Shown here in pieces: positions 22,674-27,038 of a stretch of DNA of 64,000 nt. The translations under genes and the position numbers were made by a program. Numbering within the stretch: position 1 is the first letter of the stretch; each line of letters starts with the position of its first letter. The stretch lies in assembly GCF_021134715.1 (NCBI RefSeq), contig NC_060017.1, positions 3,162,001-3,226,000 on the forward strand, written 5' to 3'. The notes below the pieces were generated by a model. It ran no database searches. It was not told the origin of the DNA and saw nothing but the letters and a program-made list of their open reading frames with translations. The DNA comes from Daphnia pulex. Taxonomy: Eukaryota > Arthropoda > Branchiopoda > Diplostraca > Daphniidae.

Positions 22674-23535
<862 letters not shown>

Positions 23536-23908: not shown

Positions 23909-23916
23909 ACCGCAAG
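23909..23916 (+). repeat. Left target-site duplication ACCGCAAG
   Basis: ACCGCAAG directly abuts the left terminal repeat at 23917. The identical octamer abuts the right terminal repeat at 27031-27038. An 8-bp duplication fits hAT and P superfamily transposases. Confidence 0.9.
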
Positions 23917-23994
23917 CAGAGCTATAGATACCTGGTCAGTTCATGGCTGTGTTGGCTTCCCTATCCCGGTTTCAGGGTAAACGTAAGCCGATTT
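23917..23994 (+). repeat. Left terminal inverted repeat (78 bp)
   Basis: It starts CAGAGCTATAGATACCTGG. Its reverse complement is found at 26953-27030 with a single T/C difference at the twelfth base. Confidence 0.9.
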
Positions 23995-24146
23995 TCAGGG
24001 GGTTTTAGGGCGGAGCCTGTCAGAAGTTGTGAAGTGGAAACTTTAAAAAGAGCCATCTAGTGATAAGACGTTGAGTTTCAAATAATACTTTCGGCGGCCA
24101 TTTTTGTGTATTACGTGAAAGAAGCCTAACCATAATTTATGTAAAA

Positions 24147-24434
24147 ATGGTTGGCAGGTGTGCTGTTCCTGGTTGTAAATCAACATATTACAAAGGAAAT
24201 CAAAAAGAAAATGAGGTTACCCTGTTTGCAATTCCTAAAACTTCATTATCAAAATGGCAAGAAGTAATTCCATGTAGTAATTTGACGAGCACCTCACATA
24301 TTTGCTCCCGTCATTTTAACGAAAGTGACTTTCAAACAGGGATTGAAATTTTGAACGTGTTCCATCCTTACAAACGGTGGACTCTTAATGCTGGAGCAAT
24401 GCCCTGGAAACCAAAATTTTCTGTTAAATGTTAA
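24147..24434 (+). CDS. THAP-type zinc finger protein (95 aa) inside the transposon
   Basis: The 95-residue product carries a THAP DNA-binding zinc finger over most of its length. The C2CH ligands are C5 and C10 in GRCAVPGC and the later CSRHF motif (about 53-57). The conserved Trp of the KW motif (about 37) and a C-terminal MPWKP resembling the AVPTIF-type box are also visible. THAP fingers bind DNA and are found in P-element transposases and in host regulators. Here it lies 230 bp inside the left transposon end, in the position of a transposase N-terminus. It stops at TAA (24432-24434), and the captured URB1-like sequence continues in the same reading frame right after. It could be a truncated transposase DNA-binding domain or an independent captured gene. 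No other transposase part is visible. Confidence 0.75.
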   Translation: MVGRCAVPGCKSTYYKGNQKENEVTLFAIPKTSLSKWQEVIPCSNLTSTSHICSRHFNESDFQTGIEILNVFHPYKRWTLNAGAMPWKPKFSVKC

Positions 24435-24436
24435 AA

Positions 24437-25737
24437 CCACCAAAGCTGTCCAATCATTGCATTATTTCTTGCCAAAGCTGCAGCCATCGTTCAAGATCCT
24501 TCTCACCCAATGTACCGTGCAATCAATAACTTTCTACTGGTATGTTCCTGTTAATTGATTGCAATTTCCTTCTCGTTTAAAACTTAAACGCCATTCCTTT
24601 CATTGTTTCTAGGTAAAATCGGCTATGGATGTTACCCAAGTTCCAGAATTTTTCGTCATGCTTCATAACACTGAACTACCTGAACAGAGGTCGCTTCAAA
24701 GGAGTTTTTTACTCAGCCTTCTTCAAGATGGCATCAAAAGTCGTCAGGACTATTTAGTGTGTGCTCGAAGAAGAGTCTTTCCAATCCTTCTCTCCTTGCA
24801 GCCATCCAATCTATTGTCCGACAAAACTGATAAGGTTATTTTTTTAGTAATTGAATTTTAGTTTGAGATTTCATCGAGACATTTTTCTTTGTTTGATTTA
24901 CAGCGGCTCATACTTGAAGTCGTACAATCTTCACTTCAGAATTCAATCATTACCTATGACTTGATTCAACATCGTGGCCTTATCATGTGGCTTGACAGCC
25001 TCTTGCTGACCGACACCGTTGCAGATGAAGCTAGTCAGATGGTGTCGGTGGTGACGACAATGTGGGACACGCTCTACACTCACATGCTGAAGAAGGGAGA
25101 GTCGAAAGAAAAGGACGACGAAGAAGCTATTGCAAAACTTGAACAGGAGGTCGAAATGATGGAAGCCGAAGACGAAGATACCGCCGACAAAACCACTAAC
25201 AAACCCAAGATGCAGAATGCTAAAATCAGTAGCAGAAAACCTATTTGGAATTTACTTCCTATGCAGCAACAAGTTATTGCTCCCTGGATCATGTGTGAGC
25301 TAATGCAGTTGATGGTCAATTTGTGGCATGTACTCTATGAAGCTGAGCCAAACTATGCTACGTTTAACAAATACGCCCGAGTATTATGCTCCGTCGCTTC
25401 ACACATTCACGAATCCAAAAGCATCATTTAAGCAGCTCAGGAGAAGGATTTGAAGACCGTCCGGTTTGTTACCCCTCCCTGCATGCTGAATGTTAAATTG
25501 ATGCGACAGCTCGTTGAAGTCTCATCCCGCTTTGTGAGTAATCTTCCCAATCTAAAGGATCATTTGGCAGTAGTTGAAAGTTCCAAAAAGAAATCCTCGG
25601 CTTGCCCAACAGAACTTAGTCGAAACTGGGAACGAAGACACAGGTATATGCGAGAACTTATGGACCAAGAAGAGACGAATGTTTCAACCAGATATAATGT
25701 GCACAAATTATTGTCTTTAGCTGAATGTGGTGTTTGA
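24437..25737 (+). pseudogene. URB1: Broken 3' part of a URB1 (Npa1)-like gene captured in the transposon
   Basis: Exon-like blocks 24437-24539, 24613-24834 and 24904-25737 are joined by GT-AG introns. The conceptual product resembles the C-terminal region of URB1, a large nucleolar protein needed for 60S ribosomal subunit maturation. Recognisable stretches are HPMYRAINNFLL, VPEFFVMLH, LQDGIKSRQDYLVCARR and QHRGLIMWL. The N-terminal bulk of the family is absent. An in-frame TAA at 25429-25431 interrupts the last exon; the same frame then stays open to 25737. An acidic insert (about 25096-25200) separates two conserved parts. Retention of introns shows capture of genomic DNA, not of a cDNA. A functional copy should exist elsewhere. 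Family assignment is from memory of the family pattern. Confidence 0.75.
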
Positions 25738-25876
25738 AATAACAATGACAATTTTGTTTGCATACAAGGAGAACCTCGTGATACGATTTCTTTTATTTTT
25801 CATATCCACTACAGCATATCTTTGCCATTTGATGTACATATTTCTTTCCCACTATAACGCAGCCAACTTAAAATTT

Positions 25877-26665
25877 CTAGACGGGTTGTTTAAGGAGAGT
25901 GGTGTAACGTTCAATCTTTGATGCCAAACTCATGTCGATGTAGCGATCTCCAAGGACAACTACAAGTCCTCAACAATGGAGGGATCCACCTTGGTTGAAA
26001 TCTTGAGAGACTGTCCTTTCTGCAAGAATCCAGAAAGAGCGGCAGTAACCTCTTTCAATGTAGCAGCATCCAAGGCCTTGATATAAGAATAGATTTTTTT
26101 AAACATTTAATTGTTTAATGTTTTTTAGATTTATATTTTACCTCGGCTGAGGTGGCCTCACATACAACTTCACCTCTGAATGCAGCTATCATGTTAAAGA
26201 AATGGCCAGTGACAACATCCAATTTGTTAAGTCTTCCATTCTCAGCAAGGAGTTCTGTAATCATAAACATATGAATAACAATTAGAATAAAGTGAAAACC
26301 AATAGAAAAGAAAAACTTACCAAGGAAGTTGCCTGTAACAGCACTCATTTTCAATTTCTTGGCAACTGAAATAAGAGCATCTTTCTTAAGTGATCTCTTC
26401 AAAGTGGGGTTGGCAATGAATTCTGCCAAACGAGAATCTTTGGCGATAGTTGCATGAAAGTCCTTCAACTCGCTCTCAACTTTGTCCAAAGATTTCTGTT
26501 TGGAAGCAGCAGAGTAGAGTGCTGAGGCATAGCGACCTTACAACCCAAAAACTTGGACTGGAGCCTATAACAATTACACAATTAGGTTAAATGTACCTGT
26601 ACCACACTCACATGATTTACCTTCACCAACTGCTGGGATGATGAACTGGTGCTGAAGTTACGAGC
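25877..26665 (-). pseudogene. ATPsynO: Broken ATP synthase subunit O (OSCP) gene captured in the transposon
   Basis: Minus-strand exons 26665-26621, 26564-26321, 26254-26142 and 26076-25877 encode most of OSCP, the mitochondrial ATP synthase stalk subunit that links F1 to the peripheral stalk. Hallmarks include GRYASALYSAASK, the ISVAKKLKMSAVTGNF region, FRGEVVCEATSAE and a C-terminus of the form DRYIDMSLASKIERYT. Two lesions kill it: a TAA in place of the Glu codon in FGL-stop-GRYA (26538-26540), and a one-base deletion near 25961-25966 that shifts the frame before the DRYID block. The first coding exon (start Met and most of the mitochondrial leader) was not found. Introns are intact. It converges on the URB1-like piece with about 140 bp between stops, as if one host locus had been taken as a block. 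Confidence 0.88.
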
Positions 26666-26952
26666 CTAATAGTTGGAAAGTAAAAACATTCATTGAAAAT
26701 AGTACAACATTTTATAAATTACGGCAAATTAATTTAGGATTGTGCGAAAACAACCGGCTATTCAAAATCGAATATAAATTCGGCTTGAAACTTAGAGGTT
26801 TGACAGTTGGATATTTCTACCTTTTTATTATTGTTCACTTCTTGTAGAAAAGTAAGCTGTGATTGGCCAATGAGTTTTTCATAGACCCTTCCTGATTGGC
26901 TGGCTTCACGTAGTAGCTGACACACTCACTAGAGGCGCTTTTTAAAGTTTCC

Positions 26953-27030
26953 AAATCGGCTTACGTTTACCCTGAAACCGGGATAGGGAAGCCAACACAG
27001 CCATGAACTGACCAGGTGTCTATAGCTCTG
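26953..27030 (-). repeat. Right terminal inverted repeat (78 bp)
   Basis: Reverse complement of 23917-23994 with one mismatch. It is followed directly by the target duplication. Confidence 0.9.
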
Positions 27031-27038
27031 ACCGCAAG
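27031..27038 (+). repeat. Right target-site duplication ACCGCAAG
   Basis: Identical to 23909-23916. Removing the element and one copy restores an uninterrupted flank. Confidence 0.9.

Follow-up and report, generated by a model that had tools for sequence, protein, structure and literature searches.

A chimeric transposon in the window

The window, the whole stretch of 64,000 nucleotides of Daphnia pulex DNA that was analyzed, contains a non-autonomous DNA transposon of 3,114 bp at 23917-27030. Its inverted ends (23917-23994 and 26953-27030) are 78 nt long and pair at 77 of 78 positions (99% complementary), and the octamer ACCGCAAG stands on both flanks, at 23909-23916 and 27031-27038. From left to right, the element consists of a P-element 5′ arm with a THAP open reading frame (ORF), a block of host DNA, a 28-bp filler, and a P-element 3′ arm; its parts are as follows (copy groups are defined below).

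23909..23916, no strand: left target-site duplication, ACCGCAAG
23917..23994, + strand: left 78-bp terminal inverted repeat, with at least 42 genome matches
23917..24433, + strand: P-derived 5′ arm (leader and THAP exon), from alignment to other P copies and a 5,022-bp element
24035..24054, + strand: subterminal inverted repeat of the left arm (20 nt, 95%)
24075..24434, + strand: THAP ORF, which stops at the junction created by the group A deletion (Pfam E 2.1e-13)
24436..26762, + strand: captured host block, contiguous, 97.2% to the native locus at C11:2688043-2690369
24436..25737, + strand: 3′ part of a URB1-like gene (NopRA1) with introns, a 2-bp deletion, and a TAA at 25429-25431
25880..26665, − strand: most of an OSCP gene (Pfam PF00213) with introns, a stop, and a frameshift; limits approximate
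26763..26790, + strand: 28-bp filler at the right junction, exclusive to captured copies
26790..27030, + strand: P-derived 3′ arm
26934..26953, + strand: subterminal inverted repeat of the right arm
26953..27030, − strand: right 78-bp terminal inverted repeat
27031..27038, no strand: right target-site duplication, ACCGCAAG

The genome that we searched is 133,188,837 bp long and comprises 13 contigs (labeled C3, C7, etc.). The window arrangement is far beyond chance, because the 78-bp end has at least 42 matches in this genome (40 of 192 candidates scored). An initial annotation, made from the sequence alone, had described identical octamers, 78-bp inverted ends with one mismatch, a THAP ORF, and portions of two genes (the 3′ part of one resembling URB1 and most of one for OSCP), and all are present; the URB1-like part matches Pfam NopRA1 (E 6.2e-14), and the OSCP part also has a Pfam match (E 4.5e-22). 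We take the NopRA1-matching gene to be URB1. The THAP ORF has a pN/pS of 0.64 between the window and C11 copies, on 10 changes only, and is frameshifted in the C9 and C10 copies.

The element lies ∼390 bp upstream of the ATG of a Ras-family GTPase gene, whose first exon is on the minus strand at 23326-23523 (Pfam Ras E 3.9e-11). This exon presumably resembles that of Cdc42.

The frame belongs to the P superfamily

The initial annotation had noted that P and hAT transposons both make 8-bp duplications and that P transposases carry THAP fingers. In the same genome, a near-complete relative of 5,022 bp (C7:3952755-3957776; L045/L047) is flanked by a 7-bp target duplication and has ORFs with profile matches to THAP, P-type RNase H, and GTP-binding insertion domains; its arms align with those of the window, C11, and C9 copies at 85-91% (5′ arm) and 86-97% (3′ arm). 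We assign the family to the P superfamily because a relative with related arms carries these three domains, and of the P-type transposase the window element retains the THAP exon only. The search for an autonomous relative, a check that the annotation had proposed, yielded this near-complete element with P transposase domains.

Target duplications, measured in 21 elements, are 7 bp long in 16, 8 bp in 2 (one of them the window element), and absent in 3. Thus, the annotated 8-bp duplication is real at the window site, but the family rule is 7 bp. Duplications of 7 to 8 bp and terminal and subterminal inverted repeats, all of which are present here, are among the features by which P elements are recognized. 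Three of the six ORFs of the 5,022-bp element match P-superfamily domains or THAP, one has weak matches to sub-cutoff families, and two match nothing; none of the six has a hAT match, and none of the 108 genome matches to PF05699 lies inside the element. The absence of hAT domains and the predominance of 7-bp duplications rule out a hAT origin. A comparison of the second P ORF with viral contigs found no relative.

P-related sequences are numerous in this genome, where THAP is matched at least 137 times and the P-type RNase H domain at least 77 times. From its alignment to the 5,022-bp element, L027, which is 1,949 bp long, derives from such an element by internal deletion. One P element on C3 (11859307-11866555; L033:501-7749) is interrupted by inserted DNA whose long ORFs look, by eye, like those of a LINE retrotransposon. 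Two miniature elements of 284 bp (L038:501-784 and L044:501-784) consist of the two arms alone, and the second of these is inserted in the end of another miniature element of the same type.

A contiguous host block in at least eight copies

Both exons and introns of the block at 24436-26762 are colinear with a native locus (L015:1497-3829) at 97.2%. The native locus is one contiguous match of ∼2.33 kb (C11:2688043-2690369), in which the URB1-like and OSCP exons are convergent and both genes are open; finding such an intact locus was among the checks that the annotation had suggested.

A search with the terminal repeat, proposed there as well, led to eight captured copies; the counts of captured copies (at least eight) and of P copies are lower bounds. 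The captured copies fall into three groups.

Group A: window 23917-27030; C7:1474278-1477393 (C7a)
Group B: C11:2607746-2610989; C7:939611-942854; C6:6595980-6599223; C4:454516-457760
Group C: C9:1283860-1286342; C10:2796204-2800071

The two copies of group A differ by 3 substitutions in 3,114 bp, and the C10 copy of group C contains two extra stretches of 975 and 381 bp. A 4-kb stretch at C6:6921500 has a C9-like 5′ arm; a right end was not found there. Six of the eight copies have a target duplication of 7 or 8 bp; those on C6 and C10 have none. C7a is nested in the end of another element, and once one of its 7-bp duplicates is removed along with it, 1,807 bp are identical, with 0 mismatches, to C11:5094302-5096108, which serves as its empty site. 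An empty site, which the annotation had recommended looking for, is thus available for one copy, other than that in the window. Because six of eight copies have target duplications and one has an empty site, we conclude that the captured element is mobile as a unit; with host sequence of a parent locus elsewhere between its two ends, it qualifies as a Pack-TIR.

Both carried genes have disabling lesions, as the annotation had noted together with the retained introns. In the window copy, the first URB1 exon has lost 2 bp that its closest relative, C7a, retains, and there is an in-frame TAA at 25429-25431; its OSCP part has one stop and one frameshift, and the native copy is open at the lesion sites of the window copy. 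Group A shares the URB1 TAA and the OSCP stop, group B lacks 10 bp of URB1 and has a different OSCP stop, and the C9 and C10 copies have an OSCP frameshift of their own. Decay of the carried gene pieces is thus separate in each group, with no sign of retained coding function. Another OSCP frameshift occurs in C9 and in all but one of the four group B copies; that remaining copy differs at this place, and C10, the window copy, and C7a lack the frameshift. This pattern hints at gene conversion between copies.

One capture and at least three carrier lineages

The right end of the host block falls on the identical base in all eight copies. Seven exact copies of the filler exist in the genome, all in captured elements (seven of the eight); the eighth, on C4, has a filler with six bases missing, and within two mismatches we found no filler elsewhere in the genome. 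The captured copies diverge less among themselves than from the native locus. In the part common to all eight, they all differ from the native locus at 22 alignment columns, as expected from one common ancestor or from a different native allele as the source. Because one right junction and its filler are common and exclusive to the eight copies, we conclude that the block was captured once.

The left junctions are varied. In group B, P sequence near position 600 is joined to the block, and a deletion spanning that junction has removed 118 alignment columns from group A. In group C, P sequence is retained to position 734, the block starts ∼0.9 kb further in, and the junction shows 2 bp of microhomology by inspection. 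No single deletion would turn the group B junction into that of group C or the reverse, and one or more additional rearrangements have to be assumed.

The arms tell a different story from the block. Block differences number 24/2314 (window-C11), 16/1481 (window-C9), and 12/1482 (C11-C9), and arm differences number 25/653, 54/644, and 41/624 for the same pairs (Fisher p of 1e-5, 3e-16, and 5e-13, arms versus block). Of the within-group controls, window-C7a lacks this contrast (p 1), but C9-C10 (p 0.019) and C11-C6 (p 0.025) have a weak one; the excess in the arms may therefore be due in part to faster change or to exchange within arms.

Arm trees were built from 18 elements, omitting the element with the LINE-like insertion (L033), the short copies L038 and L044, and single-ended loci. 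A single clade of captured copies is rejected by the 5′-arm tree (AU p 0.0048) and by the P-only 3′-arm tree (AU p 0.0095). A 3′-arm tree that united all captured copies (46/82) was discarded, as its slice held their shared filler, and was replaced by the P-only slice; in a tree of joined arms whose 3′ slice wrongly included the filler, one clade was not rejected (AU p 0.143). In the 3′ arm, group A joins an element at C5:2206984 (96/92) and group C joins the 5,022-bp element (98/96). These trees argue that a block captured once now resides in at least three P lineages.

A second capture and other host pieces

The C5 element (C5:2206984-2208832; L031:501-2349), the closest to the 3′ arm of the window, is another capture in the P family. 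Its interior is 90% to C10:9417385-9418549 (L050:1501-2670), its only full-length match, and also matches a 317-bp piece at C10:6365592. The C10 locus has a NUDIX match (E 5.7e-5); for one exon there, the best structure match is ADP-ribose pyrophosphatase (1q33, E 4e-12), and the next exon best matches a TRPM2-like channel, a protein that includes a domain of this kind. The cargo thus comprises three exons, with introns kept, of an ADP-ribose-pyrophosphatase-like gene, which we assume to be NUDT9; the third exon, read by eye, is frameshifted in the C5 element. This second capture looks older.

At C10:6362105-6366182 (L040:1-4078), a patchwork matching several loci, including dynactin-1 (92%), lies beside sequence of this cargo and a P right end at C10:6366182. 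No left end for it was found in the 8.6 kb searched, and we therefore do not claim the dynactin-1 and other host pieces as a third capture.

Origin of the captured element

The best explanation for the chimera, its mobility, the single capture, and the different arms established above is a Pack-type non-autonomous transposon of the P superfamily that acquired host DNA during repair and later changed carriers; we put the probability of this reading at roughly 0.8. The initial annotation had likewise proposed that a THAP-bearing element lost its catalytic part, gained host DNA in the manner of Pack-type elements, and moved recently, and the checks that could be run support this interpretation.

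In the proposed sequence of events, a P element would be broken or excised, and repair would copy inward from its ends and then switch template to the URB1-OSCP locus, a step read from the junctions. Filler DNA would seal the right junction, and the chimeric product would be moved by cut and paste with transposase supplied from elsewhere. Afterward, P copies could recombine or serve in each other's repair, which would give the same block new arms and left junctions. The host block replaces most of the transposase gene between the P arms, with breakpoints near both P ends (∼600 and ∼4,780 of 5,022). Repair after excision is expected to give large gaps and end-biased breakpoints, and other breaks small internal ones, as set out in PMC8277862; the end-biased breakpoints therefore fit capture by repair after excision.

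Alternatively, the block may never have been passed on: an old captured element diversified, gene conversion homogenized the block, and the arms were overwritten by, or diverged toward, other P copies. The OSCP frameshift that C9 shares with most group B copies, but that is missing from C10 and the window group, makes gene conversion plausible. On the other hand, the 3′-arm tree places groups A and C with plain elements at starred support, and we regard this course of events as unlikely, at perhaps one chance in four. Block transfer and arm overwriting would leave the same end product and are indistinguishable in these data.

A change of carriers after repair capture also has to be weighed against end-bypass transduction, in which a P end beside the native genes would pair with a distant P end and no template switch would be needed. 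Laboratory flies provide examples of such transduction by P elements (cited in PMC8277862), and the native locus has a captured copy 77 kb away (a chance of ∼0.009 for any of the eight, post hoc). Yet the 5,327 bp examined around the native block contain no P sequence and match the element at 24436-26762 only, both arms hold internal P sequence in normal order, and a filler sits at the right junction; together, these points make transduction improbable.

Independent captures of the URB1-OSCP locus by three P lineages would account for the differing left junctions and arms, but the identical right end of the block in all eight copies, a filler found nowhere else within two mismatches, and the closer kinship of the copies to each other than to the native locus make this very hard to believe. 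An ordinary retrocopy or segmental duplication between repeats, in whose favor there is nothing beyond the presence of host sequence, is effectively ruled out by introns that are kept and colinear with the native ones and by a bounded unit found at eight sites, with six duplications of its own and one empty site.

At the Daphnia pulex rate cited in PMC12926508, the 1.1% divergence between the window and C9 blocks corresponds to ∼1.2-2.3 million generations and the 0.1% divergence of the two group A copies to ∼0.1-0.2 million generations; these ages are rough because copies exchange sequence.

We find it slightly better than an even bet that host-gene cassettes outlive the P element that captured them: the URB1-OSCP block would have been handed between lineages with its right junction kept and its arms and left junction changed, more than one capture would have taken place (perhaps including dynactin-1), and small RNAs against OSCP could arise. 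Transcripts that enter from the THAP end are predicted to run antisense through OSCP, and, more speculatively, a block present in many copies might be a source of small RNAs directed at this core gene of ATP synthase.

Comparison with known systems

The way in which inverted-repeat transposons come by host genes remains a matter of debate, and few multicopy cases are known from animals. Across 100 genomes, the survey by Tan et al. 2021 (PMC8277862) counts 370 animal Pack-TIRs, of which 323 belong to hAT or TcMariner and four are present in multiple copies. Animal counterparts of the Pack-type elements to which the initial annotation had likened the window element were therefore already described; the main text of that survey names no P-superfamily Pack-TIR. 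Here, a single genome has the native locus and a near-complete relative, along with an empty site, a junction fingerprint found nowhere else, varied left junctions, and a second capture, and both template-switch capture and block exchange between lineages become testable by strain comparison.

Like the URB1-OSCP element, Pack-TIRs, including Drosophila Ssk-FB4, hold host sequence with a known parent between their ends and have target duplications; the rare multicopy ones also exist in several copies, and microhomology or inserted bases occur at breakpoints, with a 45-bp insertion in Ssk-FB4 (PMC8277862). The URB1-OSCP element differs from the Pack-TIRs as surveyed there in its P superfamily, two convergent gene parts, eight copies, three carriers, and breakpoints near the ends. 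Plant Pack-TYPE elements, as presented in PMC8903248, are likewise non-autonomous DNA transposons with host gene pieces, but belong to plants and to other superfamilies. Galileo, a member of the P superfamily, has mostly 7-bp and a few 8-bp duplications, as does the window family, but its inverted repeats are long, unlike those of the window element (PMC4168063).

The closest parallel in mechanism is P-element gap repair in Drosophila, in which DNA is copied after P excision, possibly with a template switch; a process of this type is the likely source of the chimera in the window. PMC8277862 describes gap filling as proven for the P superfamily and cites repair and capture in Drosophila after artificial activation of transposase (Gloor et al. 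1991; Tsubota and Huong 1991). Those captures followed artificial activation, whereas the URB1-OSCP element is a natural, amplified product. Among the open-licence literature matches listed, supplements aside, we found no case of natural gene capture by a P element or in Daphnia, and none of natural multicopy P capture or of block exchange between lineages. Set against these sources, multicopy animal Pack-TIRs are known yet rare, and a natural case from the P superfamily, with its block in three lineages, appears to be new.
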